Of a stretch of 35,745 nucleotides of DNA, positions 4,691-29,681 are shown one piece after another. Position numbers and translations under genes: made by a program. How positions within the stretch are numbered: the stretch's first letter is position 1; every line of letters starts with the position of its first letter. Source of the stretch: an uncultured delta proteobacterium (GTDB taxonomy: Bacteria; Desulfobacterota; Syntrophia; Syntrophales; Smithellaceae); NCBI GenBank assembly GCA_903904655.1, contig CAIVDK010000242.1, positions 1 through 35,745 on the forward strand, given 5' to 3'. The notes under the pieces are model-generated. The model ran no database searches. It was not told the origin of the DNA and saw nothing but the letters and a program-made list of their open reading frames with translations.

Positions 4691-4749
4691 TTTCTATACA
4701 TCCCGGCTAAAAACACAAGTTGTCATAACCTTTCAGGTCACGCGGTCCC

Positions 4750-6514: not shown

Positions 6515-6516
6515 GG

Positions 6517-7509: not shown

Positions 7510-7525
7510 GACGTCTGTCTCATTG

Positions 7526-10071: not shown

Positions 10072-10191
10072 AGGATACTTCCTAAAGTCTCCAGTTCTCT
10101 GGTGACTGTCATAGCACTCTAAGTAAAGTTCATCTAATTCGGAGGGTATGGCCCCCTTCTGGCAGAGCAGAATGGAGGCTTCCTCCTCTCT

Positions 10192-10512: not shown

Positions 10513-10528
10513 TCTAAAACCTCCTGCT

Positions 10529-11947: not shown

Positions 11948-11962
11948 GGTCCATTACCTATT

Positions 11963-12202
11963 TTAAGAGCACGACCCTTCTTCTTTCGGAAAGAATTCGG
12001 CCAGCACCAGGTACGTAGAACTTCCAGTCGACCAATATTTCAAAACTTCCTCATCGAGCAGTACCTTCACAGCATCCTGAACAGCATGCCGGTCCGCGTC
12101 CGGGAGCCATCTGGTGACGTCCCGGATGTAAAACATTTTTTTGTCACCCTTGGATTTTTCGTGAAAAAGGTCGACGATCTGTTTTTTCAAGTCCTCGCTC
12201 AT
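11963..12202 (-). CDS. dsrD: DsrD, winged-helix activator of DsrAB
   Basis: DsrD is a small winged-helix protein found with reductive dsrAB and reported to stimulate sulfite reduction by DsrAB. The 79-residue product contains the family stretch KGDKKMFYIRDVTRWLPDA and then DEEVLKYWSTGSSTYL. I start at the ATG at 12202, two bases past the dsrB stop, with GGGGG upstream within the end of dsrB; a 44-residue N-terminal extension seen in the open frame overlaps dsrB and is rejected. Its presence is the best single marker that this dsr locus runs in the sulfite-reducing direction. Confidence 0.95.
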   Translation of the reverse strand: MSEDLKKQIVDLFHEKSKGDKKMFYIRDVTRWLPDADRHAVQDAVKVLLDEEVLKYWSTGSSTYLVLAEFFPKEEGSCS

Positions 12203-12204
12203 GT

Positions 12205-13266: not shown

Positions 13267-13267
13267 C

Positions 13268-14458
13268 TTACTTCACCTCCTTTTGAATTTCTTCAGGCCA
13301 GAAGAATACATACGGATTGGTTCGGGGCGCTTTAACCATCTGGGGAACGGCGGGCAGGCCTACGGCCCGCAGGAATACCCTCATGCCCAGGCGCGTGATT
13401 AACTCGCCCAATCTTTCCCTGGATTTGCCATGCTCATCCCACCAATCCTGGATGCGGTCAATCAAGTCTTTGAGTTCCGTGTAAGGCGGTTCCAATTTTA
13501 TAAACGGCACGATGACCCAGGAAAGAAGAGCCCCTTGCACAATAGGCGCCTTGCCCCCGACGAGGATGGTCGCGCCCCTCTCCTTGCCCGGCCGCAGGGC
13601 TTTCGGCATCAGGTTGATGCAGTGCATACAGCGGGTGCAGTCCTCATTATATATCTTCAGTTCTTTTCCGTTCCATTCCATACACTTCGTCGGACAGAGG
13701 TCACAAACCTCCTTCTGGATATTGATGGCTGATGCGGCGTAGGCGAGAACTTCCTTCTGGTCGATCTGAATGTCTCCTTTCCATGTCCCGATGACGGAAA
13801 AATCCGACCGGGCGATGGAGGCGACGCAATCATTGGCGCAGGCCGATACCTTGATCTTGAATTTATAGGGAAACATGGGACGGTGCATCTTATCCTGGTA
13901 GTGCATGGTGAGGTTGTAACAAACATCGAGACTGTCAACGCAAGCCCATTCGCAACGCCCCGGTCCGACGCAGGCGGAAGGCGTGCGTAAGGCTGATCCG
14001 GAACCACCGAGGTCAAAACCGGCGGCGGAAAGGTCGTCAAAGCAGGACTGGAGATGCTCGGTTTTCGTACCCAGCAGAATGACATCTCCCGTTGCGCCGT
14101 GCATGTTGGTGAGACCGCTGCCGTGTTTGTCCCAGACATCACAGAGGTTGCGCAGGGCATCCGTCTTGTAGAACCATCCTGTGGGGTGATTGACCCTCAT
14201 GGTGTGAAAGGCCTGAACGTTGGGGAACAGATCGGGTCGATCCGAATAGCGCCCGATGACGCCGGCGCCGTAGCCCTTGACGCCGACAATACCCCCATGC
14301 TTCCAATGACCGATTTTGTCTTTATAAGAAAGTTCCAACTGGCGAAGGAGATCCTCGGCCATGGGACTCTTTTCGGCCGCCTGCTTCATGTCTTTTACAA
14401 AGCTTGGCCACTTTCCCTTTTCCAGTTCATCCAGAAGGGGGGTCTTTAAATCCGCCAT
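13268..14458 (-). CDS. dsrA: Dissimilatory sulfite reductase alpha subunit
   Basis: DsrA is the alpha subunit of dissimilatory sulfite reductase. The 396-residue protein shows the siroheme-[4Fe-4S] signature in full: Cx5C at Cys163 and Cys169 (ACVGPGRC) and Cx3C at Cys207 and Cys211 (CANDC). The inserted ferredoxin domain supplies VCDLCPTKC and CTRCMHC. I start at the ATG at 14458 ([17 protein letters not shown]), which has AGGAGG well spaced upstream; an upstream TTG at 14479 is unsupported. It is the first gene of the dsr train. Its promoter must lie in the 171-bp AT-rich region shared with the divergent broken lysR copy. Confidence 0.98.
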
Positions 14459-14629
14459 GATTTTACCTCCTCTCAACACCGTTCATTTTTTTGGTCCTAA
14501 AGCCCGAATAAAATCCCGACTAAGCCTGCCTTACCGGACTTTATTTTTTCATTTCTACATCATTTTAATAATAAATAACAATTTATAATTTTGATAATAT
14601 TAATCAGTATTATTCATGAAAGACTGGCC
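14459..14629. promoter_or_regulatory. Divergent control region between dsrA and the broken lysR copy
   Basis: This AT-rich 171-bp stretch separates the first dsr gene from the lysR remnant. At 14596-14614 is a dyad (AATATT, seven bases, ATTATT), at the same distance from the lysR start as a better dyad at 34109-34127 before the intact lysR. Nearer dsrA is a direct repeat TCGGG-attttat-TCGGG on the dsrA strand. I see no convincing -35/-10 pair. LysR control of dsrA through the retained site is inference. Confidence 0.45.
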
Positions 14630-14960
14630 ATGACAATTACTCTGAGACAGTTGGAGATTTTCGAAAAAGTTGCCGGTGGCCGGCATGTTACGAAAGCCGG
14701 CGAACAGTTGTTCATCACCCAATCGGCAGTCAGCATGGCTATTGCCGAAGTGGAGAAATTTGCCGACGCGCCTCTTTTTGAGCGCCGCGGCAGGCGGTTA
14801 CTGCTCAATGATCGGGGGCTAGGATTTTGTCTCAGGCGCAGGACGTGCTGCGGCAAGTCGGCACGATAGAGCAGTTGCTGATTGAATCCGTAGGTGAACC
14901 GATAGGCGTATTGAAAGTGGGGGCCAGCACCACGGTTGGCAACTATATTCTTCCTACTAT
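14563..14960 (+). repeat. Left copy of a ~400-bp direct repeat (5' part of lysR and its leader)
   Basis: This stretch matches 34076-34474 in the same orientation. In both copies the lysR ATG lies 67 bases after the repeat start. By eye the coding parts differ at about a dozen positions plus a one-base deletion, close to 95% identity, while the leader is less conserved. Similarity stops abruptly after CTACTAT at 14960. The two copies enclose about 19.1 kb of accessory genes. Confidence 0.9.
14630..14960 (+). pseudogene. Truncated, frameshifted LysR-family regulator
   Basis: The frame opens MTITLRQLEIFEKVA and encodes the winged helix-turn-helix (TKAGEQLFITQSAVSMAIAE), nearly identical to the intact regulator at 34143-35027. 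A one-base loss near 14820, just after LLLNDRG, shifts the frame, and translation would stop at 14869. Continued similarity in another frame (SQAQDVLRQVGTIEQLL) runs to 14960, where the gene is cut and unrelated sequence follows. The effector-binding domain is missing. A short product with only the DNA-binding part (about 79 residues) could in theory be made, but a dead copy is more likely. Confidence 0.9.
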
Positions 14961-14969
14961 TAATTGTAA

Positions 14970-15128
14970 GCAAAGGCACTCAATGTGGCAAACGGCGGAA
15001 CATTCTCAACCGGCCTGCCGGTTGAAGACTACAGCGCAGTCATTTTGACTTACGGGAAAACGACAATAGAAAATCTCTTTTCAATTGTCGCAGGCGTAAA
15101 CACCGGCATCGGAACGATCGCTTTCTAG
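14970..15128 (+). pseudogene. C-terminal remnant of an unidentified gene
   Basis: Directly after the lysR copy breaks off there is an open frame of 52 codons ending at TAG 15126-15128. It contains ALNVANGGTFSTGLPVED and then ENLFSIVAGVNTGIGTIAF. It has no start codon with a ribosome site, but is protein-like and is followed 13 bases later by a strong hairpin, as at a real gene end. I do not recognise the family. It seems to be the tail of a gene whose front was lost at the junction. Confidence 0.4.
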
Positions 15129-15292: not shown

Positions 15293-16387
15293 TTATTTTA
15301 TCTCTTCTCTCTTCCAGTTCGCAGGCCACCATGCAGCCGGCTTGATCTGGGGGTGCTGATTTTCTTTAGCTAACATATTGATATTACTGTATAACTTTTG
15401 TCCGTTGATCCCTTTAGCTTGCATTTCCTGAAGCCACTCATCTGTGATGGGTTGTACGGCTTTTCGCCACCGAGCTTTTTCCTCAGGTGGCAGGATGTAG
15501 ATATCATCTCCCCTCTTCTTGAGCTGGGATAAGATGGATTCCCTGCCTTCATCTACCAATGTTCCCAGCAGTATGGTAAGTGATGGAGCGAGTTCCTCAA
15601 ATACCTTCTGAACATCCGGAGGGAGGGAATTCCACTTGTCTAAGTTCATGGCCGTAGGCTGCACGGCCGAGGCGGCGCGAATGATGACATGGTGGTTGAC
15701 CATGTCCGTCAATTTGAAAGCGGCCAGAGGCGTGGTTGGAAATAGCACACCTTTGATGTCCCCCCTTTGCAGGGACATGGTCACGTCCTCGGCCTTAATA
15801 GCCCGGGGAGCGCCTCCAAGAAGCTGAATGATTTGCACGGCGGTTTTTGACCCTCCAAAAAGGGGCAGGCCTTTCATGTCTTCCATTTTTTTCGGCCCCG
15901 GAACCACAAGATGCAGGTTGAGAGCGTCGATATTGTGCACGGCCAGGATCTTTAAACCGTCAAATTCCTTCTTATACTCTGGAACGGTTGTAAGGATTTT
16001 ATAGGTGGTTAAATTTGCCTGTATTCCTGATTCAAAGAGAAATGGGAGGTTGAAAGATCGGGTTACGGGGAACTTGCTCTCTTGAGCCCATACGGGCACA
16101 AACATGGCCATATCAATCACACCGTTTTTTACGGCCTCATGCAGCTGGTTTGCTTTGACCAGGCTTCCTCCATGATACCATTTGAATTTTACTTGCCCTT
16201 TTGTTCGCTTTTCAATTTCAGCGGACCAGGGTAGAAAACCCTTCTGAAACATGGGATGCTTTTCTGTATCGTGGTTTCCCACCCTAATTTCAATGGTTGC
16301 CGCATGGACCACTAACCCTGAAATGAAAAAACCAAAAATGAACATGATACATGCAATACTTAGTGCTGCTTTCTTCTTTGTCATCAT
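15293..16387 (-). CDS. TRAP transporter solute-binding protein (DctP family)
   Basis: DctP-type proteins bind an organic acid-like solute in the periplasm and hand it to a DctQM permease. The 364-residue protein has an N-terminal signal (KKAALSIACIMFIFGFFISG, ending near VVHAA). It then has typical family pieces: GNHDTEKHPMFQKGFLPW, MEDMKGLPLFGG and WNSLPPDVQKVFEE. The start has two adjacent ATGs (16387 and 16384); AAGGAGG is four or seven bases upstream, so the second may be the one used. It follows the fused permease gene by 101 bases on the same strand. The substrate cannot be read from the sequence; carboxylates and sulfonates are the usual class. Confidence 0.93.
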   Translation of the reverse strand: MMTKKKAALSIACIMFIFGFFISGLVVHAATIEIRVGNHDTEKHPMFQKGFLPWSAEIEKRTKGQVKFKWYHGGSLVKANQLHEAVKNGVIDMAMFVPVWAQESKFPVTRSFNLPFLFESGIQANLTTYKILTTVPEYKKEFDGLKILAVHNIDALNLHLVVPGPKKMEDMKGLPLFGGSKTAVQIIQLLGGAPRAIKAEDVTMSLQRGDIKGVLFPTTPLAAFKLTDMVNHHVIIRAASAVQPTAMNLDKWNSLPPDVQKVFEELAPSLTILLGTLVDEGRESILSQLKKRGDDIYILPPEEKARWRKAVQPITDEWLQEMQAKGINGQKLYSNINMLAKENQHPQIKPAAWWPANWKREEIK

Positions 16388-16488
16388 ATAACCTCCTTAT
16401 TAATTATCTTATTAATTATCTTATTATCTATGAAAGTTGACCTATTTTCACTACATTCATCCTCCTTTATGTTATTTTTCGAGTCCGA

Positions 16489-18417
16489 CTATTTTATTTC
16501 CGCAAGAGTATCCATGGCATTGGGCAGAAGCAGGGCGATATCCGGAAATATCGTTAACAGGACAATGACGGCAACCATCACCAGGACGAAAGGCAATACT
16601 CCCTTGAAAATTGTTCCCATGGGGACACCGCCGGCGATGCCATGGATCACAAAGACGTTCATCCCAACAGGAGGTGTGATCTGCCCCATTTCCATCATGA
16701 TGACCATAATGACACCGAACCAGATAGGGTCAAACCCCAGGGCCATGATGGTGGGAAACAAGACCGGCAGAGTAACCATGACCATCGGTATAATATTCAT
16801 CAGCATACCAAGGATCACGTAGAGGAACAGGATAATTGCCAGAAGCAGATACCTTGAGACATTAAGATTTTTCAGATAGCCCGCTAAGTCAGAGGGTATG
16901 TCCGTTAGTGTAAAAAAATTTCCTAAAACGCCAACACCCACCAAGATGACTAAAATCATAGCCGTCATTTCAGTAGTTGTATGCATGGCCCTGATAAGTT
17001 TTTTACGCGATAAACCTCCGCTGATTACAGCGACAACCAAGGCGCCTATGGTGCCCAGCGCAGCCGCCTCTGTAGGCGGCATGATGCCGGAGTAAATTCC
17101 CCCGATCACAAGGAAGATAAGGAAGACAATTGGCCATACGTCCTTGGCGCTTGATAGTTTTTCTTTCAATGATGTTGAAGGCCCCGGGGGGCCTAGTGCA
17201 GGGTTCCACTTACAGCGCAGATAGACCATAAGAGCAAATGCAAGGCACAGGATAATACCCGGTAAGATACCCGCCATGAACAGTTTTGCAATCGATTGCT
17301 CGGTAACGAGCGCATACGCAATAAAGCCTATGCTGGGCGGGATGAGAATCCCCAGCGTTCCTCCTGCAGCAACTGAGGCTGTTGCCAGCGATTCGTCGTA
17401 TCGATAACGTTTCATCTCCGGAAGCGCTACGGATCCCATGGTGGCCGCCGTAGCCATGCTATCTCCGCAAATCGATGCGAATCCACCGCAACCGAATATC
17501 GTTGCAATGGCCAAACCTCCAGGAATACGGCCAACTAATTTAGACGCTGCATTAAAAAGTCTGGCTCCAATGCCGGATTCATAGCACAGATAACCCATGA
17601 GACCGAAGAACGGAATCACGCAAATGTAATAGTGGGCAAAAGCATCATGAAGGTTTAGCCTTAAAACGGAGAAGGCTACTTCAATGCCACTGATATACCA
17701 TAGTCCCAGAAGTCCCATCATAGCCATTGAAAAACCAATGGGAAAACCGATTAACATTACACTGATGAGAAGAGAGACAAATATAATGCCGACTGTAGAA
17801 CGGGGAAGGTCCGGGTTAAAGAATTTCAGCCAAAGAGGAAGTATTGCTAATGCAATGGCGATCACCGCCATTAGGCTTGCCTGAAGCCATGGTCGCTTAT
17901 TGGCTTTAAACATTTCGGCCAGATAGCCCAGCATCTGTCCGAATAAAACAAGAGCTACCAGAGCATATCCAATGACGGCAATGATATAAATCGGCGTATA
18001 AGGGATCATGCTGATGCTTGCTCTTTCACCAGCCTCGTATGCTTCAATAGCGCGTATTACAGATTGCCAAGAAATGATCGAGAAGAGGGCGAATCCCCAG
18101 ATGGAAAAGACGCCGCCCAGGAAAACTTTAACCTTGCTTGATAATTTGGCATTAAGGAGGTCTACACTCACATTTCCTCCCTTAAGAGTTGTATAAGCGA
18201 AAGACAAGAATCCGACCAGTACCATCATAAAGGTTTCAAGTTCAATCAGACCGGAAAACTCATAATTAAAGATAAACCTGGTGAATACGGATAACAGAAT
18301 CAGGAAAGCCATAGCGAGAATCAGAACGCCGCTTGTGAAGGAAAGCCAGCGAGTCAGTGGTTCCATAAAACTGTTTAATCGGTTTTTCGCAAAATTCAAA
18401 TACACTGACGCTCTCAT
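16489..18417 (-). CDS. TRAP transporter fused DctQM permease
   Basis: This 642-residue membrane protein joins the small DctQ subunit (about residues 1-185, four membrane segments, with WLSFTSGVLILAMAFLILLS near the front) to the large DctM subunit (about 190-642). DctM signatures include GFPIGFSMAMMGL, GDSMATAATMGSVALPEM, LGILIPPSIGFIAYAL and GGIYSGIMPPTEAAALG. It drives Na+- or H+-coupled uptake with the DctP protein encoded next. The fused form is common. Upstream lie a 237-bp gap with a palindrome and the Lin0512 gene on the same strand. Confidence 0.94.
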   Translation of the reverse strand: MRASVYLNFAKNRLNSFMEPLTRWLSFTSGVLILAMAFLILLSVFTRFIFNYEFSGLIELETFMMVLVGFLSFAYTTLKGGNVSVDLLNAKLSSKVKVFLGGVFSIWGFALFSIISWQSVIRAIEAYEAGERASISMIPYTPIYIIAVIGYALVALVLFGQMLGYLAEMFKANKRPWLQASLMAVIAIALAILPLWLKFFNPDLPRSTVGIIFVSLLISVMLIGFPIGFSMAMMGLLGLWYISGIEVAFSVLRLNLHDAFAHYYICVIPFFGLMGYLCYESGIGARLFNAASKLVGRIPGGLAIATIFGCGGFASICGDSMATAATMGSVALPEMKRYRYDESLATASVAAGGTLGILIPPSIGFIAYALVTEQSIAKLFMAGILPGIILCLAFALMVYLRCKWNPALGPPGPSTSLKEKLSSAKDVWPIVFLIFLVIGGIYSGIMPPTEAAALGTIGALVVAVISGGLSRKKLIRAMHTTTEMTAMILVILVGVGVLGNFFTLTDIPSDLAGYLKNLNVSRYLLLAIILFLYVILGMLMNIIPMVMVTLPVLFPTIMALGFDPIWFGVIMVIMMEMGQITPPVGMNVFVIHGIAGGVPMGTIFKGVLPFVLVMVAVIVLLTIFPDIALLLPNAMDTLAEIK

Positions 18418-19053: not shown

Positions 19054-19486
19054 TTGTGGTAGTCTTCTTTGCTAATGTGCTATTATAATGAAAACAACGT
19101 GATACTTAATTATAACTCAGTTGCTAGTTAATATATTAATACATCATTATATAATAATGCTTGACATTCTTTTTTACCTTTGTCAAGATAAAATCCATGG
19201 CAGATAAAAAACTTTGGTCATGACCGGTGCCTGACGGCGCGTAAGACAGAAAAGTTTAAATTTATCGTACTAAACACGTCATGAATAGGTGTCTAATGAA
19301 GAGTTTATCTGGTGCGCCCTCGCGAAGAGATTGTATACAGATGAAACGGAGTCCGTTTTGAAATACGGCGGGGGATAAATTAATCGATTATTTTACTGAT
19401 CACGAAAATGTCGAATGCGTGCAAGATTCAGGTAATGCATCAAAAATAATATATGCCTTTTAAGATACGACGTGAGGAGCTTAAAC
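19054..19486. promoter_or_regulatory. 433-bp divergent intergenic region between the Lin0512 gene and the thioredoxin operon
   Basis: No gene is visible. The left half is very AT-rich, with GTTAATATATTAAT and ATTATATAAT self-complementary runs. A dyad CTTGACA (19160-19166) with TGTCAAG (19181-19187) could be an operator and contains a TTGACA, but no convincing -10 lies at 17 bases. The right end carries GAGGAGC (19475-19481), the ribosome site of the thioredoxin gene. Control of both the TRAP unit and the catabolic series from here is likely but unproven. Confidence 0.45.
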
Positions 19487-19801
19487 ATGATTGAAGAAAT
19501 GACAGACGACACATTTGCTAAGCAGACTGCCCAAGGGATTTGTCTGGTACTTTTTTACAAGAACCCCTGCCCATACTGTCAAACCATGAAGGGTGTGGTT
19601 GAAAAATTTGGGGGTAAGAGTCCGGGTGTTAAGCTATTACAGATTAACGGTCTGGAGCATACAAAAATGGCTGCTCAATTGGGTGTTGAAAGATTCCCTG
19701 ATATTTTCTTCTATAAGGATGGCCTACCAACAATAGCCAGACAGAAGGGGATGACGAATTACCAGGGACTGATGGCGCTTTTGCAGACTATTAAGCACTG
19801 A
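19487..19801 (+). CDS. Thioredoxin-like protein (CPYC)
   Basis: The 104-residue protein has a thioredoxin fold with active site NPCPYC (Cys28, Cys31). A cis-proline follows in RFPDIFFYKDG. CPYC is the glutaredoxin-type active site rather than the CGPC of housekeeping thioredoxins. I start at the ATG at 19487, with GAGGAGC six bases upstream; a GTG at 19472 would place the ribosome site inside the gene. It leads a plus-strand series and is followed 38 bases later by a thioredoxin reductase-like gene, its likely electron donor. The target may be one of the enzymes encoded downstream. Confidence 0.9.
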   Translation: MIEEMTDDTFAKQTAQGICLVLFYKNPCPYCQTMKGVVEKFGGKSPGVKLLQINGLEHTKMAAQLGVERFPDIFFYKDGLPTIARQKGMTNYQGLMALLQTIKH

Positions 19802-19839: not shown

Positions 19840-20763
19840 ATGGAACAATATGACATTGTTATTCTCGGTGGAGGAATAGCCGGACTCACCGCTGCCGTAT
19901 ATGGGGTTCGGGCCGGTCTTAAAACATTGGTTTTAGAAAAAAACACATGTGGGGGCCTGGCAAACTGGGCAATTGAAATTGAGAATTTTCCTTCTCATGA
20001 GAAGATCGGTGGCCAGGATTTGATGACACGAATCAAAAGCCAGGCTCTGAATCTGGGCGTAGAAATCCGGGAGATTATAGAAGTCGAAGGGATTCAGCTG
20101 GAAGGTCGTTCCAAAGAAATCAAGACAGATGACGGTATTTTTTATTCGAAAACTATAATCGTGGCCTCCGGCCGTGAGCCTATTCCGCTTTCAATCATGG
20201 TGGACAGTGATCACATTCATTACTGTGCCATCTGTGATGGAACGGCTTATCGGGGAAAGGATGTTTTGGTGGTCGGCGGCGGAAACAGTGGAGTATGCGA
20301 TGCTTTGTATCTGTTGAACCAGGGAGTAGGAGGTATTACACTGATCGAGCAGATGGATCGTCTTTTTGCTGCTAAAGTTAGCCAGGAGGCCCTCTTGGCC
20401 CGCCCAGAAGTAAACGTGATGACCTCAACAGAGGTATGTGGCCTTACCGTTGACGGGGATAGCCACCGGGTCACCCTGAGAAATACGCAGACAGCGGCCC
20501 GCCAGGAGATCGAAGTAAGGGGAATTTTCGTTTATATTGGGCAGGTGCCGCATACCAGCTTGTTCAAAGGAATCCTCGAGTTGGATGAGCAGGGCTATAT
20601 TCAGGCAGACGAAACCATGCATACCAACCTGGAAGGCGTTTTCGTGGCTGGAGATGTCAGAAGGAAAAAATACCGTCAATTGACAACCGCCATGAACGAC
20701 GGAACCATCGCGGCCCTTGAGGCGGAAGAATATATTCACAAGAATGCAAGGATGACTAAATAA
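19840..20763 (+). CDS. Thioredoxin reductase-like flavoprotein
   Basis: This 307-residue protein matches low-molecular-weight thioredoxin reductase. It has an N-terminal FAD fold (ILGGGIAGLTAAVYG) and an inserted NAD(P)H domain (VLVVGGGNSGVCDALYL). The redox pair is CAIC (Cys129, Cys132) before DGTAYRGK, and the C-terminal FAD motif is GVFVAGDVR. It should reduce the thioredoxin encoded just upstream. The electron source (NADPH, NADH or ferredoxin) cannot be fixed by eye. The next gene follows after 24 bases. Confidence 0.9.
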   Translation: MEQYDIVILGGGIAGLTAAVYGVRAGLKTLVLEKNTCGGLANWAIEIENFPSHEKIGGQDLMTRIKSQALNLGVEIREIIEVEGIQLEGRSKEIKTDDGIFYSKTIIVASGREPIPLSIMVDSDHIHYCAICDGTAYRGKDVLVVGGGNSGVCDALYLLNQGVGGITLIEQMDRLFAAKVSQEALLARPEVNVMTSTEVCGLTVDGDSHRVTLRNTQTAARQEIEVRGIFVYIGQVPHTSLFKGILELDEQGYIQADETMHTNLEGVFVAGDVRRKKYRQLTTAMNDGTIAALEAEEYIHKNARMTK

Positions 20764-20787: not shown

Positions 20788-22347
20788 ATGCCAAAAAACG
20801 CAATATTTATTATGTTGGATTCGTTTCAGTTCAACTATATGGGCTGTTACGGTAACAAATGGATGAAAACCCCGAACATAGACCGATTGGCCAAGGAAGC
20901 CATGGTTTTTGATAATGCCTATACTGAAGGACTTCCTACGATTCCCTGCCGACGGGCGATGATGACCGGCCGCTACACGCTGCCTTCCAAGGGCTGGGGA
21001 CCACTTGATCCGGATGATACCACTATAGCCGATATGCTATGGGGCAAGGGCGTGCATACGGGGCTAATTTTTGACACGCCTCCTATGCGTTTGCCTAAGT
21101 ACGGCTATCAGCGAAGTTTTTACGATGTCATCTACGGTCAACATGGCCATGAACTGGATTATGAATACTACCGTCATGATGCAGTGAAAAATGACATGAA
21201 GTATGAAGATTACCTGGATCAGAACATCATTGATAATTTCAGAAAAGATCCGGCTTTCGAACCCTACATTGACCACAATATCGATGAAATAAACTGTATC
21301 CTCAGAAGTCGTCAAAACTGGAAAAATGAGGAAGAAAGCATGCATGCTGCCGTGCTGGTGAACAAGGCAAAAGCCTGGCTGGAGGAGCGCACCAAAGATA
21401 AAGAACATCCGTTCTTCCTGTGGTTCGACTGCTTTGACCCACATGAACCTTTCGATCCCACATCCGTTTGGGAAAACTTCCCCTGCCCGTATGATCCAGA
21501 CTACAAAGGTAAGGAAATGTTTCTGCCGGCGATGGGTCCTGCCAAGCACTACACCGAAGAGCAGCTCCATCATGTCCGCATGCTTTGGGCAGAGAAAATG
21601 ACACTTGTGGACAAGTGGGTCGGGAAACTCCTGGATAAAGTGAAAGAGCTGGGGTTATGGGACAATACGATGATCATCTTGTGCGCTGATCACGGTCATC
21701 CTACCGGCCATGGCGAACACGGCCATGGAATTGTGCGCAAGGTCCATCCCTGGCCCTACGAAGAACTGGCACACATTCCCTTGATTGTGAGGATGCCGGG
21801 TGTTGGCGAGGGGAAACGTAATGCCTCTTTCGTGCAGTCGGTCGACATTACTCCGACAATCCTTGATTGGCTACAGACTCATCAGGAAGCCGCGCATTAC
21901 GGTAAGCATGTTTTGGATTCTAGCGTGAGCAATGTGGACTTCCAAGGATTCAGTTTGCTACCACTGATCCGGGGCGAGAAGGAAAAACTGCGTGACTTTG
22001 CCATTGCCGGTTTCTACGGCTATTCTTGGAGCATCATCCGGGATGATTATTCCTTCATTCATTGGATCAAGAAAGCGAATGCCGAGACCTATGAAGAGAC
22101 AATGGAAATGGTCAATATCATGTACGATTTTGGCGGGGGAGCCGGTGGAAAGTTTTCGAAAAGCTCGCAGACGGAAGAAATGTGGTCGTGCACTCCGGGA
22201 GACATTGTATTACCGGCCGAGGATCAGCTTTTCGACCGTAAGACAGATCCTTTCCAGCTCAAAAACATCATCAAGGAAAAACCAGAAGTCGCCAAGGAGC
22301 TTCTGCAGCAGTTAAAATTGTACATGGCTGAGCTGAAGGCAAGTTAA
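20788..22347 (+). CDS. Sulfatase-fold hydrolase with Thr at the nucleophile position
   Basis: The 519-residue protein belongs to the alkaline phosphatase/sulfatase superfamily (PF00884 type). Metal-site pieces are present: IMLDSFQFNYMGCYG near the start, and ADHGHPTGHGEHGHG with Asp301 and His302. A canonical EELAHIPLIVRMPG follows. The catalytic motif, normally C/S-x-P-x-R before TGR, reads TIPCRRAMMTGR, placing Thr51 at the formylglycine position while Cys54 sits in the variable slot. It therefore cannot form formylglycine there. Thr-type members may be phosphodiesterases, phosphonate hydrolases or phosphotransferases rather than sulfatases. No signal peptide is visible, so a cytoplasmic substrate is likely. 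It sits after the thioredoxin pair in the same direction. Confidence 0.85.
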   Translation: MPKNAIFIMLDSFQFNYMGCYGNKWMKTPNIDRLAKEAMVFDNAYTEGLPTIPCRRAMMTGRYTLPSKGWGPLDPDDTTIADMLWGKGVHTGLIFDTPPMRLPKYGYQRSFYDVIYGQHGHELDYEYYRHDAVKNDMKYEDYLDQNIIDNFRKDPAFEPYIDHNIDEINCILRSRQNWKNEEESMHAAVLVNKAKAWLEERTKDKEHPFFLWFDCFDPHEPFDPTSVWENFPCPYDPDYKGKEMFLPAMGPAKHYTEEQLHHVRMLWAEKMTLVDKWVGKLLDKVKELGLWDNTMIILCADHGHPTGHGEHGHGIVRKVHPWPYEELAHIPLIVRMPGVGEGKRNASFVQSVDITPTILDWLQTHQEAAHYGKHVLDSSVSNVDFQGFSLLPLIRGEKEKLRDFAIAGFYGYSWSIIRDDYSFIHWIKKANAETYEETMEMVNIMYDFGGGAGGKFSKSSQTEEMWSCTPGDIVLPAEDQLFDRKTDPFQLKNIIKEKPEVAKELLQQLKLYMAELKAS

Positions 22348-22578: not shown

Positions 22579-22875
22579 GTGCAAATCGTTTTCCGAATTT
22601 TCGACAAGGATACAAATCGTGCTCAGTGGACAGAATCGATTCTCTATGAAAGCATGAAGGCCAATAAGATCGAAGGAAAGGTGAGCCAGGTATGCTGCCT
22701 TCAGGAATTCGGCCGACAGGGTGTCAAACAACTTCCCGCGCTGGAGTTGAATGGAATGATGCTGTCTCAGGGAAAACCACTGACTGAGGCCACAATGGCC
22801 GAAACTTGCACCAGGCTGGCGTACGCCCTTCAAAAAATGGGGAAAGCCGGAAAGGAAGTTCTTATCAAAAGTTAG
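22579..22875 (+). CDS. Small thioredoxin-fold protein lacking the N-terminal CxxC
   Basis: The 98-residue product resembles the small redox-active disulfide (Thioredoxin_3-like) family. It has a beta-alpha-beta start and then GVKQLPALELNGMMLSQGK, the typical cis-Pro (Pro53) and following strand-turn. The place where the family carries CxxC reads KDTNRAQW, with no cysteine; instead an adjacent Cys39-Cys40 pair occurs in SQVCCLQEF. It may be a binding or scaffold subunit rather than an oxidoreductase. I start at the GTG at 22579, with AAGGAG six bases upstream; a longer reading from 22534 lacks a ribosome site. It lies between the sulfatase-fold and SDR genes. Confidence 0.65.
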   Translation: MQIVFRIFDKDTNRAQWTESILYESMKANKIEGKVSQVCCLQEFGRQGVKQLPALELNGMMLSQGKPLTEATMAETCTRLAYALQKMGKAGKEVLIKS

Positions 22876-22926: not shown

Positions 22927-23688
22927 ATGAGCAAAATGTTTAACGGTGAAGTCGCACTTATAACTGGTGCTAGTTCGGGGATCGGCAGGGCTGTCGCCAT
23001 GGCCTTTGGCGCCGAAGGTGCCCGGGTGGCTGTTTCCGGCCGCAACAGTGAAGAATTGGCCAAAACGGTGAATATGGTTTCGACCAATGGCGGCGAGGCC
23101 TTCGCCGTTAAGGCCGATGTGTCCAAAACAGCTGATGTTCAGGCTATGGTCGCGAAAACTGTCGAGCATTTTGGTGCACTGAACTTTGCCATCAATAATG
23201 CCGGAGTCGCTGGTGATGTTTTTGTGCCGACTGTCAACTACTCAGAAACCACCTGGGACAATGTCATTGGCATTAACTTAAAAGGGGTGTTTCTTTGTAT
23301 GAAGTATGCGCTTCCTCACCTCTTGGCAACAAAAGGTAGCATTGTTAATATTGCTTCTACATCAGGCTTGGTTGCAGGACCGATTGGTTGTGCCTATGTT
23401 GCCAGCAAGCATGGTGTTGTGGGGCTGACAAAGGCGGCGGCACTCGAGTATGCCGACAAGGGTGTGCGCATCAATGCAGTAGCTCCGGCAGTTATCCTTA
23501 CGGAAATGACCGAACGTGGCGGCATCAATGATCCGGCTATCGCAGCCATGATGGTCGCGAAGCATCCCATGGGGCGCATTGGCAGGCCGGAAGAAGTAGC
23601 CAATGCCGTGCTGTGGTTGTGCTCAAAGGGAGCGTCTTTTACGACAGGGCATACCTTGGCAGTCGATGGCGGCTGGTTGATTCCATAA
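22927..23688 (+). CDS. Short-chain dehydrogenase/reductase (SDR)
   Basis: The 253-residue protein is a classical SDR that oxidises an alcohol or reduces a ketone with NAD(P). It shows the nucleotide-binding TGASSGIGRAVA, the NNAG motif, the catalytic YVASK (Tyr157, Lys161) and the usual C-terminal FTTGHTLAVDGGW. SGRNSE after the second strand, with Arg, leans toward NADP(H), but this is not decisive. It precedes a sugar-type aldolase, a kinase and another dehydrogenase, so it may turn a polyol or hydroxy compound into the ketose that the kinase phosphorylates. Its composition is closer to the genes before it than to the AT-rich trio after it. Confidence 0.92.
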   Translation: MSKMFNGEVALITGASSGIGRAVAMAFGAEGARVAVSGRNSEELAKTVNMVSTNGGEAFAVKADVSKTADVQAMVAKTVEHFGALNFAINNAGVAGDVFVPTVNYSETTWDNVIGINLKGVFLCMKYALPHLLATKGSIVNIASTSGLVAGPIGCAYVASKHGVVGLTKAAALEYADKGVRINAVAPAVILTEMTERGGINDPAIAAMMVAKHPMGRIGRPEEVANAVLWLCSKGASFTTGHTLAVDGGWLIP

Positions 23689-23756: not shown

Positions 23757-24611
23757 ATGGGACTTGTTACTATGGTTGAAATATTGGACAAAGTACACGC
23801 CAATGGCACGGCTGTTCCTGCTTTTGATGCTATTGATCATGCTTCTGTTGAGGCAATAATTAAGGCTTCGGAATCAATTAATAAACCAGTGATTATTATG
23901 GTGCCTGAAGCGGCTTTACCGTTAATTGATGTTGATAACTATTTTGAGTATTTAACTTATCGCCTGGGTAAAACGAAAGTCCCTGTTGCGTTGGAGCTTG
24001 ATCATGGAAAGAGCTTTAATGTGATTATGAAAGCAATCCATGCTGGATTTACCGGTGTAATGATTGATGGATCAGATTTACCCATTGAAGAAAACATTTC
24101 ACTTACAAGAAAAATTGTCGAAATTGCCCACGCGGCAGGCGTTAGTGTCGAGGGTGAAATTGGTCATGTTGCAGGAGGTGAAGGAGACATGACCGAAGGG
24201 AGTGAAGCTGATGAAAATATGTATACCAAACCTGAGGATGCAAAGCGGTTTGTAGAAGAAACTGGAGTTGATGCGCTTGCGGTTGCCATTGGAACAGTAC
24301 ACGGTGTATATAAAGGTACACCCAAGCTCGATTATGAACGTTTGAAAAAGATTAAAAACATTGTAAATGTTCCACTTGTTTTGCATGGAGGTTCAGGTGT
24401 CGCAAAGGAAGATTTCGTTAAAGCTGTGGAAAACGGAATCAACAAGGTCAATCTATTCACTGAAATATCAATGGCAGCTGTTGCACAAAGCATCAATTAC
24501 GCTCAAAAAAAGCAAAACAAATTACACTTTGCGGAACTTGTATTGATCGCTAATAAAACAGTCAACGCAATTGCATTAGATTATCTAAAACTTCTCAGCC
24601 TGGATAATTAA
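23757..24611 (+). CDS. Class II (zinc) ketose-bisphosphate aldolase family protein
   Basis: Class II aldolases cleave ketose phosphates to dihydroxyacetone phosphate plus an aldehyde. The 284-residue protein has the zinc-ligand regions ALELDHGKS, SVEGEIGHVAGGEGDMTEG and VLHGGSGV. It also has KVNLFTEISMA at the phosphate-binding end, as in FbaA, GatY and KbaY. The start has AAAGGAGG upstream. A paired kinase follows 56 bases later, so the substrate is probably the product of that kinase and need not be fructose bisphosphate. Codon use is markedly AT-rich (22 of 60 G+C in the line at 24001), unlike the dsr region or the AOR gene. Confidence 0.92.
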   Translation: MGLVTMVEILDKVHANGTAVPAFDAIDHASVEAIIKASESINKPVIIMVPEAALPLIDVDNYFEYLTYRLGKTKVPVALELDHGKSFNVIMKAIHAGFTGVMIDGSDLPIEENISLTRKIVEIAHAAGVSVEGEIGHVAGGEGDMTEGSEADENMYTKPEDAKRFVEETGVDALAVAIGTVHGVYKGTPKLDYERLKKIKNIVNVPLVLHGGSGVAKEDFVKAVENGINKVNLFTEISMAAVAQSINYAQKKQNKLHFAELVLIANKTVNAIALDYLKLLSLDN

Positions 24612-24667: not shown

Positions 24668-26227
24668 ATGAGTAAATACATCATTGCTATTGACCGTGGA
24701 AGCACCAATGTTAAGGCAGTTGTCTTTGACAAAGCTGGTAATGAAGTTTTTGTTTCATCTGTTGCTAGCCAGAAACCTGTTTCTGTACATCCTGGATGGT
24801 GGGAACAGGATATGAATATTATGTGGGAAGGGACGGTACAAGCCATCAAGGGTGTTTTCGAAAACAGCAAGTGTGATGCTTCTGGGCAGTCAGCTTTCTC
24901 TAAACGATCATTTAATGAAATTAAGGCTGATGACATTCTCGGAGTAATTGTCACAGGCCAGGGTAATGGTCTGATGCCCGTCGACAAAAACGGGAATCCA
25001 TCTCGAATGGGGATTTTATCATTGGATAGTCGAGGCGCTGAAATTCATAACAGTTGGATGGCAGACGGCAGGTATATGCAGGCCGCTCAGATTGTTGGTA
25101 TGCCTTTCCCTGCCGGGTCACCGCTTCCCTTGCTTTCTTGGTTTGAAAAGAATCAGCCCGAAGAATTCTCAAAAATAGACAAAATTCTGTTTTCAAAAGA
25201 CTGGATTCGTTTTAAGCTTAGCGGAACTTTGTGTACGGATCAGACGGATGCCAGTGGTGCCGGCCTGATGGCGCTTGCAAAAAATGATTACGCATGGGAT
25301 GTTTTCAATCTGCTTGGCCTTAAGTCAATCAAGGATAAACTTCCAACAATCGTTCCTTCTCATACAGTTGTTGGGGCAGTCACGCGTGGTGCAAGTCTTG
25401 AAACGGGATTGAGAGAGGGAACTCCGGTTCTTTGTGGAGCTCATGATATTGCTGCTTATCCATTTGGTGTTGGTACACTTGATTCAAAAGAACTTGTAAC
25501 GGTTGTTGGAACCTGGGGACTGAATCTCATAGCTACGAAAAGTCTTGAAGGTGCCATAGCAGCTCTGTATCACTGCGTTCCGGGGTATTTTATTACGGGG
25601 CTTGGCGATGGCAACTCTGGCGGATGTCTCGACATTATTGTGGATACAATTTGCCAAAACGAGAAATATCAAGCAGCTCAATTTCAAAAATCGGTTTATG
25701 AAGTGATTGAGGAAGAAATCGAAAAGACAAAACCATCAAGCATTATATTTCAACCATACATTTTTGGCAGTTTGATGAACAGTTCAGCGAGCGCTGGATT
25801 CTGTGGTATTAAGAACTGGCACACAAAGGCCGATATTATGCGTGCTGTTTATGATGGAATTGTCATGGGGCATTATGCATATGTTCAAATGATTCCTGGA
25901 CACGAATCATTTAAATCAATGTGGCTCATTGGTGGTGGCGCAAAAAGCAAAGTATTTGGTCAGATTTTTGCCGATATAACGGGTTTGACCGTTAAAACGA
26001 CAGAGACGCATGAAATCACTGCGCGCGGTGGAGCGCTGAATGCTCTTGTAGGTCTCGGTATCTGCAAATCTCATGAGGACGCATGCATTTCACCTGAAAT
26101 TTCGAAGTTGTATGAACCAAATTTCCAGCGGCACGAATTCTATCAAAAGAAATTTGGGATTTTCAATCAGCTTAGTCAGACAAACGCAGAAGTATGGTCT
26201 ACTCTAAATGAAATGAATAAAAATTAA
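24668..26227 (+). CDS. FGGY-family carbohydrate kinase (LyxK/EryA/YoaC-like)
   Basis: The 519-residue protein is an ATP-dependent sugar or polyol kinase. The phosphate-1 motif is IAIDRGSTNVKAVVFD, GQGNGLMPVDKNG lies in the first domain, GTWGLN in the middle, and the C-terminal FGGY region contains GGGAKSKVFGQIFADITG. The overall pattern is nearer to L-xylulose and erythritol kinases and to Bacillus YoaC than to xylulokinase or glycerol kinase. CTGGAGG precedes the ATG. It is 10 bases from a YoaD-like dehydrogenase, echoing the B. subtilis yoaC-yoaD pair. The substrate is unknown. It is AT-rich and probably acquired together with its neighbours. Confidence 0.9.
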   Translation: MSKYIIAIDRGSTNVKAVVFDKAGNEVFVSSVASQKPVSVHPGWWEQDMNIMWEGTVQAIKGVFENSKCDASGQSAFSKRSFNEIKADDILGVIVTGQGNGLMPVDKNGNPSRMGILSLDSRGAEIHNSWMADGRYMQAAQIVGMPFPAGSPLPLLSWFEKNQPEEFSKIDKILFSKDWIRFKLSGTLCTDQTDASGAGLMALAKNDYAWDVFNLLGLKSIKDKLPTIVPSHTVVGAVTRGASLETGLREGTPVLCGAHDIAAYPFGVGTLDSKELVTVVGTWGLNLIATKSLEGAIAALYHCVPGYFITGLGDGNSGGCLDIIVDTICQNEKYQAAQFQKSVYEVIEEEIEKTKPSSIIFQPYIFGSLMNSSASAGFCGIKNWHTKADIMRAVYDGIVMGHYAYVQMIPGHESFKSMWLIGGGAKSKVFGQIFADITGLTVKTTETHEITARGGALNALVGLGICKSHEDACISPEISKLYEPNFQRHEFYQKKFGIFNQLSQTNAEVWSTLNEMNKN

Positions 26228-26237
26228 GGAGAAATCA

Positions 26238-27281
26238 ATGAAAATCGTATGTGCTTGCGATTTGGCTATCAACCCAAATGTAATGTCTACTATGAAAGAC
26301 CTTGAAAAATTCGGAGCAGAGGTTGTGTTGTTCGAAGACAGTCAAATGCAGACGCCAAAAGCAATTACCGAAGTAATGATTCAAACAGAGCAACATGGCG
26401 CTGATTCAAGTCCTGCAAATCCCGAATTAATTGAACTTTGTAGAGATGCAGATGTAGTTGTCGTTCACGCTTCGCCAATTAATTCAGAAGTACTTAATAA
26501 AGCAGAAAAACTGAAATATATAGCGGTTCTGAGAAGCGGAATTGAAAATATCAATCATGATATTTGCATTACCCGTGGAATTAAGGTTATAAGTGCTCCT
26601 GGACGAAGCGCCCATGCCGTTGCGGACTGCACATTGGGACTTATGTTAGCCGAAGCTAAGAATATTGCGCGCGGTCATAAGGCACTAATGGAAGGAAAAT
26701 GGATTAAGAAATTTGTCAATTTTAACTTTATCCATGACCTTCGGAATTGCACGATCGGAATAATTGGTGTGGGCCAAGTGGGACAGAAGGTTATCGATAG
26801 GCTGAAAGGATTTGGCCCGGAAATTATTGTTCATGATCCGTTCATGACGAATGAACATTTACAGTCTCTCGGCTACACACCAGTGACGATTGAAGAGTTG
26901 TTGAATGCATCTGATTTCGTTTCAATTCATCTGCGTCTTTCCGATAAAACTAAAAATTTTATTGGGGAAAAGGAACTCTCAATGATGAAGCCCACAGCCT
27001 ACTTTATTAATACTGCCCGTGCTGGCCTAGTCGATGAAGACGCACTTGTTTCAGCATTGCAGAACAAAAAGATTGGTGGGGCAGCACTTGATGTATTCAC
27101 TGAGGAGCCACTCGATAAGGATAATCCACTCCTGAAACTTGACAATGTGACCCTCACACCACATGTAGCTGGAACCTCTGTAGATACATTTACAACTTCT
27201 GTAGAAATAATTAAAAATGCTTTGACCGAAATGTTTGAAGACAAGCCAATTAGTGGCTTGGTCATTTCGTCTGTGAAATAA
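26238..27281 (+). CDS. D-2-hydroxyacid dehydrogenase, 3-phosphoglycerate dehydrogenase-like (YoaD-like)
   Basis: This 347-residue NAD-dependent dehydrogenase has the Rossmann motif GIIGVGQVGQKVIDRL. The catalytic Arg is in NTARAGLVDEDAL, the Glu in FTEEPL and the His in TPHVAGTSVD. It lacks the C-terminal ACT domain of full-length SerA. TAAGGAG precedes the ATG, 10 bases from the kinase stop. It may oxidise a phosphorylated 2-hydroxy acid made in the same pathway; serine synthesis is less likely given the neighbours. It is the most AT-rich gene of the group (19 of 60 G+C in the line at 26461). A small hairpin follows the stop. Confidence 0.9.
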   Translation: MKIVCACDLAINPNVMSTMKDLEKFGAEVVLFEDSQMQTPKAITEVMIQTEQHGADSSPANPELIELCRDADVVVVHASPINSEVLNKAEKLKYIAVLRSGIENINHDICITRGIKVISAPGRSAHAVADCTLGLMLAEAKNIARGHKALMEGKWIKKFVNFNFIHDLRNCTIGIIGVGQVGQKVIDRLKGFGPEIIVHDPFMTNEHLQSLGYTPVTIEELLNASDFVSIHLRLSDKTKNFIGEKELSMMKPTAYFINTARAGLVDEDALVSALQNKKIGGAALDVFTEEPLDKDNPLLKLDNVTLTPHVAGTSVDTFTTSVEIIKNALTEMFEDKPISGLVISSVK

Positions 27282-27297: not shown

Positions 27298-27393
27298 CAG
27301 ATATATAAAATCATATTAATATGGCCAATCTAATATTTTTTTAAATGTTGCGATTTAAATGTGATCCCTGAAGCATGCGACCGGAGGGTTTCC

Positions 27394-27810
27394 ATGAGTT
27401 ATTCCATAACTGAGTTGTGCAACGGATGCGGAGCCTGCGCCAAAATGTGCCCGGTGAAGGCGATTTCCGGCGAAAAAAAAGAAAGACATATCATCAATGC
27501 AGCCCTCTGCATCGAATGCGGTAGCTGCGGCAGAATATGCCCTGAATCAGCCGTTCTGGATGATCAGGGAATCACGGTTGCCAGGATGAAGAAGGCGGAC
27601 TGGCCGAAACCGGTCATCAACTCGGATCTTTGCTCGGCCTGTGAAAACTGTGTGGCTGTCTGTCCTACCCATGCGTTGGCTATGGCCGATGAACGGCTGC
27701 CTCTGACGAAGAACCGGGCGGTACTGGCGCAACCCGCCAAATGCGTTTCCTGCGGCTGGTGTAAAAATAACTGCCTCTTCGACGCCATCACCATGGGAGG
27801 TGCAGCATGA
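27394..27810 (+). CDS. Polyferredoxin with four [4Fe-4S] motifs
   Basis: The 138-residue protein carries four cysteine groups in a row: CNGCGACAKMCP, CIECGSCGRICP, CSACENCVAVCP and CVSCGWCKNNC. Two back-to-back bacterial ferredoxin domains are implied, with one cluster cysteine group ending in NNCLFDAI instead of CP. The ATG at 27394 has CGGAGGG six bases upstream; a GTG at 27361 lacks support. It overlaps the AOR start by ATGA, so it is translationally coupled and is almost surely the electron acceptor for AOR. It lies 112 bases after the AT-rich trio and has the GC-rich composition of AOR. Confidence 0.92.
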   Translation: MSYSITELCNGCGACAKMCPVKAISGEKKERHIINAALCIECGSCGRICPESAVLDDQGITVARMKKADWPKPVINSDLCSACENCVAVCPTHALAMADERLPLTKNRAVLAQPAKCVSCGWCKNNCLFDAITMGGAA

Positions 27811-29681
27811 AAGAGATTCTCGGAACCAGCAACAAGTACCTCGATATTAACCTGACCGACAAAACCTGGAAAATCCACCAGGCAACTCAGGATGATTTGA
27901 AGATGTTTTTAGGCGGCAAGGGCCTGGGGCTCAAGATATTCTATGACAAGCTGAAAGATAAACTGGGTGATGTGGACCCTCTGGGACCGGATAACCTGCT
28001 CATCTTTGCCAACGGCGTGCTCCTCACAACCGGAGCGCCCTGTTCGGCTCGGTTCGAGGTCATCACTAAGTCGCCGCTGACCGGCTACATGGTGGCCTCC
28101 TCCTGTGGTGGGCCTTTCGGCGAAGCCTGCAAGACCGCCGGATGGGATGGCATCATCATCTCCGGCAAGGCCCAGAAGCCGACGGTGATTCGCTTTGACG
28201 ATCAATCAGTCATCTTCGAGGATGCGGATGATCTATGGGGAGCCAAAACGCATGATACCCAGGAGAGACTCCACCTGGGTCCGAAGGAAGCCGCCGCCGT
28301 GATTGGACCCGCCGGTGAGAACAAAGTCTTCTATGCTAACATCTGCTCCGGCCACCGCTTTGCCGGTCGCGGGGGTGTCGGCGCGGTCATGGGCGCGAAG
28401 AACATCAAAGCCATCGTGGCCCGGGGCAAGGAATATCGCTGCGTACCGGTGAACCGGGAGAAGTTTGAGAAGACCATGAAGAAGGCCAAAGCGCATATCG
28501 CGCGCAGCCCGTTCACCAAAGGGTACAAAGCCTTCGGCACTAACATGAATACGCGTTTCGGCATCGACTCGGGCTACACTCCGGTACGAAACTTTCGTGA
28601 CAGGTATAGTCCCAAGACCGGGGCCATCACCGGTGAGGTCATGGCCGAAAAGTATCAAACGCGGCATTCAACCTGCCGCTACTGTTCGGTGCTTTGTGGA
28701 CACAAGGGCATGTATCCCGACGGAAAGATGCGGCAGATTCCGGAATACGAGACCACCAGCCTGTTCGGCAGCAACATTGAAAATTATGACACGGACAAAA
28801 TCGGGATCTGGAATGACATCATGAACGATATGGGGATGGATACCATTTCCGCAGGGGGAACCATGGCCTGGGCGATGGAGGCCGGTGAAAAGGGACTGCG
28901 TAAAACGGAGCTCTCCTTTGAGAATCATGATAACATTGCCCGCATCCTGGAGGACATCGCCTACCGTCGGAATGAGGGCGCGGAGCTGGCCGATGGATCG
29001 AAGCGTATGAGCGAGAAATACGGCGGCAGGGAATTTGCCATCCATACCAAAGGACTGGAGATCGCGGCCTATGATCCCCGGGCTTGCTGGGGACACGGAC
29101 TTTCCTACGCGGTGCACAACAAAGGCGGCTGTCACCTTGGATCTTATCTTGTGGGTCTCGAGGTGATCATGGGCTTTATGCCGCCTCAGACAAAGATGGG
29201 CAAGGCCTCCTGGGTCGTTTTCTGCGAGGACCTATTTGCCGGAATCAACTCGCTCCAGACGTGCCTGTTCACGGCTTTTGCCATCCTGACGGAGCCGGTT
29301 GTTCCGAAGTACTTCCCGCTGGCGGTTCTGAACGTCGCCACCATTTTGAACCCCGGGATGTCTCAGATGTTGATGAACTGGAGCGTTTACTCCGACTTTT
29401 TCTCCGCCATCACGGGCATCCCAATGAACCAGTGGCAGTTCAAAAAGGCAGGTGAGCGCATCACCAAGCTGGAGCGCTATATGAACGTGCAGATGGGACA
29501 GACACCGTCCGAAGACACATTGCCTGACCGGTTTACGAAAGAGGCAGTGACCAAGTATCCCGTAAATTCCGTGGTGCCCATTTTGCCGATGGTGAAACAA
29601 TATTACGGTATCAGAGGCTATGACCCCAAAACCGCTGGCCCCACGGTGAAAAACTTGCAACGTCTTGGGATTTCGGCTTGA
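27807..29681 (+). CDS. Aldehyde:ferredoxin oxidoreductase (tungsten/molybdenum AOR family)
   Basis: AOR-family enzymes oxidise aldehydes to carboxylates, passing electrons to ferredoxin through a tungsten bis-pterin and a [4Fe-4S] cluster. The 624-residue protein has the typical start (YLDINLTDKTW) and GGKGLGLKIFYDKL. It also has PAGENKVFYANICSGHRFAGRGGVGAVMG split across the pterin-binding domain. Cluster ligands CRYCSVLC (Cys290, 293, 297) are followed by a fourth Cys486 in LQTCLF. Length matches the family. It is coupled to the polyferredoxin. Its neighbours suggest it removes an aldehyde released by the aldolase or works in the reverse, acid-reducing direction; the substrate is unknown. 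Confidence 0.94.
   Translation: MKEILGTSNKYLDINLTDKTWKIHQATQDDLKMFLGGKGLGLKIFYDKLKDKLGDVDPLGPDNLLIFANGVLLTTGAPCSARFEVITKSPLTGYMVASSCGGPFGEACKTAGWDGIIISGKAQKPTVIRFDDQSVIFEDADDLWGAKTHDTQERLHLGPKEAAAVIGPAGENKVFYANICSGHRFAGRGGVGAVMGAKNIKAIVARGKEYRCVPVNREKFEKTMKKAKAHIARSPFTKGYKAFGTNMNTRFGIDSGYTPVRNFRDRYSPKTGAITGEVMAEKYQTRHSTCRYCSVLCGHKGMYPDGKMRQIPEYETTSLFGSNIENYDTDKIGIWNDIMNDMGMDTISAGGTMAWAMEAGEKGLRKTELSFENHDNIARILEDIAYRRNEGAELADGSKRMSEKYGGREFAIHTKGLEIAAYDPRACWGHGLSYAVHNKGGCHLGSYLVGLEVIMGFMPPQTKMGKASWVVFCEDLFAGINSLQTCLFTAFAILTEPVVPKYFPLAVLNVATILNPGMSQMLMNWSVYSDFFSAITGIPMNQWQFKKAGERITKLERYMNVQMGQTPSEDTLPDRFTKEAVTKYPVNSVVPILPMVKQYYGIRGYDPKTAGPTVKNLQRLGISA

Follow-up and report, generated by a model that had tools for sequence, protein, structure and literature searches.

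A Thr-type subfamily of sulfatase-fold enzymes coupled to a Trx3/TR3 thioredoxin system

In the alkaline phosphatase superfamily, Thr nucleophiles are known from phospho-enzymes, and D-T-D-H is the metal-2 pattern of the phosphotransferases and phosphodiesterases that use them. Within the sulfatase family PF00884, LtaS and EptA are Thr-type proteins. The formylglycine-dependent sulfatases (SulfAtlas family S1) begin the motif C/S-x-P-x-R with a Cys or Ser that is converted to formylglycine, and they carry a GKWH signature with the catalytic Lys and His; in Pseudomonas aeruginosa AtsA, these are Lys113 and His115, the latter being the base of the elimination step (PMC5066984). According to the SulfAtlas authors, Thr is found in 30 of the 59 Pfam seed sequences of PF00884, and formylglycine derived from Thr has never been demonstrated (PMC5066984). 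With Thr so frequent in PF00884, the motif by itself is ordinary for the superfamily.

The other described system that bears on the locus reported here is the DvTrx3/DvTR3 pair of Desulfovibrio vulgaris; we take DvTrx3 to be the desulfothioredoxin of the solved structure 2l6c. That structure has been assigned to the D. vulgaris desulfothioredoxin (PMC3817692). Trx3 is described as non-canonical and reportedly without protein disulfide reductase activity, and TR3 as the NADH-dependent thioredoxin reductase specific for it, in which His replaces the Ser before CxxC and the HRR motif for NADPH is missing (PMC5627308). The passages of that paper on DvTrx3 and DvTR3 contain no mention of a sulfatase, and in the open-licence PMC literature we found no account that links a Thr-type sulfatase to a thioredoxin.

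The stretch of DNA analyzed here (the window; 35,745 nucleotides of contig CAIVDK010000242.1 from an uncultured delta proteobacterium of the family Smithellaceae) encodes a Thr-type sulfatase-fold enzyme, with genes for a thioredoxin (Trx) and a thioredoxin reductase (TR) directly upstream. These features are as follows:

19472 to 19801, plus strand: thioredoxin of the Trx3 (desulfothioredoxin) type, active site CPYC (PF00085, 3.3e-13; best solved match, 2l6c)
19840 to 20763, plus strand: thioredoxin reductase of the TR3 type, HYCAIC, no HRR (PF07992, 8.7e-39; motifs)
20788 to 22347, plus strand: Thr-type sulfatase-fold enzyme, 519 aa (PF00884, E = 1.9e-42; AF2; conservation)
20938 to 20940, plus strand: codon ACG for Thr51, formylglycine position (alignments)
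20947 to 20949, plus strand: codon TGC for Cys54, variable motif position, not conserved (alignments)

The open reading frame (ORF) of the enzyme is opened by the ATG at 20788, and its motif around codons 51 and 54 reads GLPTIPCRRAMMTGRY. Alignments with solved sulfatases and with sulfatases of related genomes put Thr51 in the formylglycine column and Cys54 at the variable x of C/S-x-P-x-R, which bears out the original prediction for both residues. Because the ORF begins with the domain's first strand (MPKNAIFIMLD), the enzyme probably resides in the cytosol. Its AF2 model (pLDDT 89.4, pTM 0.91) is a confident sulfatase fold, and its top-ranking counterparts among solved structures are sulfatases together with phosphonate monoester hydrolases such as 2w8s, 2vqr, and 4uph (VIA Z 28 to 33).

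With the S1 sulfatases and the phosphonate monoester hydrolases, the enzyme shares the fold (PF00884), D11, Pro53, H219, D301/H302, the motif Arg (Arg55), and the later active-site Lys (K318). It differs from them in having Thr for Cys/Ser, Ser or Thr for Asp or Gln after D11, and Asp96 in the place of GKWH, where the window enzyme reads FDTP, as well as in its link to Trx3/TR3. By sequence, it has the Thr at the nucleophile position and the D-T-D-H pattern of the Thr-nucleophile phosphotransferases and phosphodiesterases (D11, T51, D301, and H302). Another large uncharacterized Thr-type group of PF00884, the TLPxH proteins (L029 to L032), has the same Thr column, the D-[ST] after the first strand, and the loss of GKWH, but these proteins have His where the window enzyme has the sulfatase-like Arg55. 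Unlike LtaS, EptA, and the TLPxH proteins, the window enzyme starts directly at the catalytic domain and comes with a redox module.

Scanning bacterial and archaeal genomes with a profile yielded 79 loci, comprising 49 close ones (L045 to L093) and a second tier of distant ones (L094 to L123) that served as a contrast; the fragment L098, in which the formylglycine column is missing, was excluded from residue counts. Locus counts are based on tblastn and match coordinates, and a scan of genome contigs with a single-protein query gave no match. Thr occupies the formylglycine column in all 49 close loci and in 27 of the 29 distant ones and is therefore neither chance nor a sequencing error; whether it is fixed in the family, which the original prediction had proposed to check, can thus be answered in the affirmative. 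Residue 54 is V, C, T, A, or still others, and this free variation rules out Cys54 as the nucleophile of the family. D11, R55, H219, D301, H302, and K318 are invariant among 62 aligned sequences out of 80 available, and D11 is followed by Ser or Thr in every one of 79 sequences. Asp96 is likewise invariant (79/79) in the sequences that have lost the GKWH signature, whereas all 11 Cys-type sulfatases of that same alignment retain GKWH or GKSH. With Thr fixed and the Lys/His pair of GKWH replaced by Asp96, the enzyme, judging from its sequence, cannot be a standard formylglycine sulfatase. Because GKWH is gone while Asp96 is invariant and the remaining active-site residues are kept, the site is a coherent alternative and not that of a decayed sulfatase.

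The two exceptions to the Thr rule are distant loci from Leptolinea (Chloroflexi), in which the column holds Cys. Both of these proteins (10001 to 11419 in L100 and 10001 to 11170 in L106) read PCMPAR, a full formylglycine motif, yet they have Asp96 where GKWH would be expected, and they represent either a reversion or a separate chemistry.

In a tree of 78 rows (L089 and L098 left out), the close loci form one clade with support of 100/100, and the partner of the window enzyme is L045. The locus of this closest relative also encodes a Cys-type sulfatase, an FGGY kinase, and a RuBisCO-like protein (8692 to 11755 and 11971 to 13326). Two cysteines are specific to the clade, Cys468 (49 of 49 close loci) and Cys233 (47 of 49), with neither present in any of the 29 distant loci; Cys20 is found in distant loci too and is hence unspecific. 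Cys468 adjoins a low-confidence stretch of the AF2 model, both Cys233 and Cys468 are also found in close loci without a nearby TR, and the two could simply form a disulfide with a structural or regulatory role.

Among solved structures, the closest relative of the window Trx is the desulfothioredoxin 2l6c (3.7e-13), which stands well above ordinary thioredoxins in the Trx profile scores (123.5 bits, with the next at 92 and ordinary bacterial thioredoxins at 60 or less). Its active site is CPYC rather than the CPHC of DvTrx3; among 27 module Trx proteins, CPHC is found in 20, CPNC in 5, and CPFC and CPYC in 1 each. D. vulgaris itself is absent from the genome samples, in which the module Trx proteins reach at most 78% identity with the 2l6c fragment. 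The window TR resembles DvTR3 in having His before CxxC, as do all 30 motifs found, and no HRR, but it lacks the CxQ element at the Trx-binding site and reads DSDHIHYC; CxQ is present in the TR of many relatives (e.g., ECEQVHFC in L048). The genome of the window encodes another TrxR, in which the motifs are the canonical ones (GRGVSYCATC and HRRD), so that the TR/Trx pair of the module is an extra one.

A TR homolog lies within 6.5 kb of the Thr-type gene in 30 of the 49 close loci and in none of the 29 distant ones. In these 30 loci, TR is found within 2.5 kb in 27 cases and on the same strand in 29, and 27 have Trx as well. Among the 19 close loci without TR, the sequence on one side is shorter than 4 kb in 8, and 11 are true exceptions at this search depth, with at least 7 kb on both sides; the TR-less exceptions include the deep branches L081, L083, and L084, where Cys233 and Cys468 are kept. 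On the tree, the TR label changes 8 times versus 24.5 times in shuffles, and 0 of 500 shuffles were as low.

At the genome level, among 199 genomes of the family of G454, a Trx3-type protein is found in 25, a Thr-type protein in 26, and both in 24 (Fisher p = 1.4e-27, uncorrected for kinship), with cut-offs of E ≤ 1e-20 for the Trx3 profile, which was built from module members, and E ≤ 1e-60 for the Thr-type protein; a Thr-type gene starts within 6 kb of 23 of the 28 Trx3 genes in this family. In 395 genomes of the window's phylum, there are 5 Trx3 matches over 110 bits, in 4 genomes and all beside a Thr-type gene, with the next match at 59.6 bits; Thr-type genes without Trx3 are found in G080 and G124. 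Across the loci, the transporters vary (TRAP, MFS, DASS/CitMHS, NhaC-type, or peptide-type ABC), and so do the regulators (sigma-54, histidine kinase, or Crp-type), whereas the enzyme and the Trx pair are constant. Apart from this pair, no recurrent gene of thiol/disulfide metabolism was found near the Thr-type loci. The coupling to Trx3/TR3 is well supported by genomics, and we are highly confident that the enzyme is of the Thr type and functionally tied to Trx3/TR3. What is new is a Thr-type subfamily of the sulfatase fold, defined by TxPxR and Asp96 and coupled to this system.

Some individual loci deserve mention. Culturable strains among the carriers are Desulfoluna spongiiphila (L057), Desulforhopalus singaporensis (L090), and Desulfovibrio cuneatus (L064). 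The bin of “Candidatus Mailhella merdavium” (G447), a gut member of Desulfovibrionaceae, encodes at least 7 Thr-type paralogs (L054, L055, L058, L062, L069, L070, and L076). Several of these paralogs have a TRAP transporter of their own next to them, and the bin also carries two genes for Trx3. In a member of Phycisphaerae (L047), an SdsA1-type alkylsulfatase (1709 to 3613) is found in a cluster with TRAP, Trx3, TR3, and Thr-type genes, a hint at sulfate esters.

The window also encodes dissimilatory sulfite reductase:

12205 to 13266, minus strand: dsrB, dissimilatory sulfite reductase beta (TIGR02066, over cut-off)
13268 to 14479, minus strand: dsrA, dissimilatory sulfite reductase alpha (TIGR02064, over cut-off)

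Positions 639 to 14979 hold dsrAB together with two dsrK-like genes and more DsrMKJOP-like genes. Neither AprA (E ≤ 1e-50) nor ATP sulfurylase (Sat; E ≤ 1e-10) was found in the genome of the window (100% complete, 4.66% contaminated), and its organism is a sulfite reducer rather than a sulfate reducer. The same is true for AprA and Sat in G447, G463, and G474 at these cut-offs, and G453 has no Sat and only a sub-cut-off relative of AprA, the Sat search having covered 19 genomes. For organisms without Sat and AprA, the useful product is sulfite, not sulfate. Close to the end of the window, there is a YeiH-family gene beside one for a YeiE-like LysR regulator (32817 to 33923 and 34143 to 35027), both below curated cut-offs; in other bacteria, the YeiH/YeiE pair is associated with sulfite handling.

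In the wider sample, DsrA passed the cut-off in 31 of the 39 genomes carrying close relatives versus 4 of the 26 carrying distant ones, an association that is confounded by ancestry. It is missing at this level in 8 of the 39, including the complete chromosome of L084 (G468), and the DsrA positives outside Desulfobacterota (SAR324 and Chloroflexi) are two metagenome bins, possibly mixed. AprA is over the cut-off in 27 of 40 dsrA-bearing carriers, so released sulfate could serve these.

The remaining genes around the module are listed below.

15293 to 16387, minus strand: TRAP solute-binding protein DctP (PF03480, 5.1e-38)
16489 to 18417, minus strand: TRAP fused membrane protein DctQM (PF06808, 2.1e-99; PF04290, 1.3e-17)
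22579 to 22875, plus strand: small protein, 98 aa, GTG start, predicted thioredoxin-like fold without CxxC (AF2, Foldseek)
22927 to 23688, plus strand: short-chain dehydrogenase (SDR), local carbon pathway, outside the conserved module (window annotation)
23757 to 24611, plus strand: class II ketose-bisphosphate aldolase-like protein, local carbon pathway (PF01116, 3e-86)
24668 to 26227, plus strand: FGGY sugar kinase, local carbon pathway (PF00370, 1.2e-51)
26238 to 27281, plus strand: D-2-hydroxyacid dehydrogenase, local carbon pathway (PF02826, 4.5e-63)
27361 to 27810, plus strand: 4Fe-4S ferredoxin (NF058577, over cut-off)
27807 to 29681, plus strand: aldehyde:ferredoxin oxidoreductase (AOR) family (PF01314, 3.7e-107)

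The TRAP transporter genes (15293 to 18417) are divergent to the Trx, TR, and Thr-type genes, and a DctQM homolog is found within 6.5 kb in 10 of the 49 close loci. The small protein encoded downstream of the Thr-type gene has a homolog in 6 of the 49; its AF2 model (pLDDT 89.6) has the thioredoxin MtH895 as its best Foldseek match, a weak one (E = 1.4e-3, with none below 0.001). Minimal loci, with a transporter, the enzyme, Trx, and TR but no carbon pathway, speak for sulfur use. The window locus, which encodes an SDR, an aldolase, an FGGY kinase, a hydroxyacid dehydrogenase, and an AOR, shows that use of the carbon moiety is possible too, and, given this pathway, the gain could be carbon rather than sulfur. 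The Thr-type gene was absent, at this depth, from the other 50 searched genomes of its GTDB family, and the G+C content of the module region (15 to 27 kb) is 0.40 to 0.47 versus 0.50 to 0.55 in the dsr region; the module was therefore probably acquired horizontally.

Our best, albeit tentative, reading of these data is a cytosolic enzyme that cleaves organosulfur compounds by means of a Thr nucleophile, is coupled to TR3-Trx3, and perhaps supplies DsrAB with sulfite. Taken separately, the chances of the substrate being an organosulfur compound appear evenly balanced, and the release of sulfite is possible but doubtful. As a putative metal-dependent member of the alkaline phosphatase superfamily, the enzyme would have Thr51 as the nucleophile over a D11/D301/H302 metal site, as family knowledge suggests. 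A transporter (TRAP in this case) would bring in a small organosulfur anion, most likely a sulfate ester, and its sulfo group may pass to Thr51. The resulting sulfo-threonine would be barred from the formylglycine hemiacetal route, with formylglycine and the GKWH His both missing, and would for this reason need resolution by a thiol, either that of Trx3 or that of an enzyme cysteine served by Trx3, for which the clade-specific Cys233 and Cys468 are candidates. A second thiol would then free sulfite, much as in PAPS reductase, and DsrAB could respire it without ATP sulfurylase or APS reductase. In PAPS/APS reductase, a thiol attacks the sulfo group, sulfite leaves, and thioredoxin is the reductant. 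The likeness extends to this proposed logic only: the fold is unrelated, and the substrate of the window enzyme would be an organosulfur compound rather than an adenylyl sulfate. In its most specific form, a reductive desulfatase that would convert imported organosulfates to alcohol and sulfite, not sulfate, via Trx3/TR3 and NADH, the proposal is rather unlikely. No mention of reductive desulfation or a reductive desulfatase, or of organosulfate or sulfate ester respiration, was found in the open-licence PMC literature.

The main alternative, an unlikely one in our estimate, is a Thr-nucleophile phosphodiesterase, phosphonate esterase, or phosphotransferase, with the Trx pair serving some other function of the operon or a reducible substrate. 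It is from such phospho-enzymes that Thr nucleophiles and D-T-D-H are known, and the phosphonate monoester hydrolases 2w8s, 2vqr, and 4uph are among the top structural matches, although they use formylglycine. However, it is not evident what a dedicated Trx3/TR3 pair would do in phosphoester hydrolysis, the carriers are sulfite and sulfate reducers, and the search of the neighbors brought up neither phosphate-regulated genes nor genes for phosphonates. The suggestion in the original prediction that the enzyme may act on a phosphoester or phosphonate thus finds no support, as dsrAB and dsrK in the window, DsrA in the carriers, and the Trx3/TR3 pair point to sulfur.

Less probable still is a hydrolytic Thr-type sulfatase that frees sulfate, with Trx3/TR3 merely keeping Cys233/Cys468 reduced as an on/off switch. 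The confinement of both cysteines to the clade with Trx3/TR3 would fit such a switch, and most carriers, those with AprA, could use the sulfate, but it would have no respiratory use in the window's genome, G447, G463, or G474, and a private TR/Trx pair would be an unusual outlay for a single regulatory disulfide. It is quite improbable that the substrate bears a reducible sulfur (S-sulfonate, thiosulfonate, or disulfide) on which Trx3 would act, with some other group being removed by the Thr enzyme: the reported lack of protein disulfide reductase activity in the non-canonical Trx3 (PMC5627308) is in line with this view, but no thiol/disulfide metabolism gene recurs besides the Trx/TR pair. 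Finally, a degenerate or formylglycine-type sulfatase with Cys54 converted in place of residue 51 can be dismissed with near certainty, even though the window protein has Cys54 and its genome encodes an anaerobic sulfatase maturase over the cut-off (478 bits), because many close relatives have V, T, or A at position 54, the strong conservation of the remaining site argues against decay, and, in a search of 5 genomes for the anaerobic maturase family (aerobic FGE falls outside it), this family was not over the cut-off in G447, with its 7 copies, or in G441, G445, and G474.

Most of the many Thr-type members of the sulfatase family have no assigned function, and the tie to Trx3/TR3 across several phyla is a strong clue for this subfamily. 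If the enzyme is a reductive desulfatase, it would feed DsrAB directly and save the ATP cost of sulfate activation, it would allow organosulfate respiration by sulfite reducers that have neither ATP sulfurylase nor APS reductase, such as the organism of the window and Mailhella, and it would provide a function for the orphan desulfothioredoxin system. If sulfite is released, organosulfur compounds would enter anaerobic sulfur respiration by a route not described before, which would matter for sediments and for the hydrogen sulfide-producing sulfite reducers of the gut. More generally, an enzyme family with a private thioredoxin in sulfite-respiring bacteria hints at an undescribed redox-coupled breakdown of sulfur compounds.
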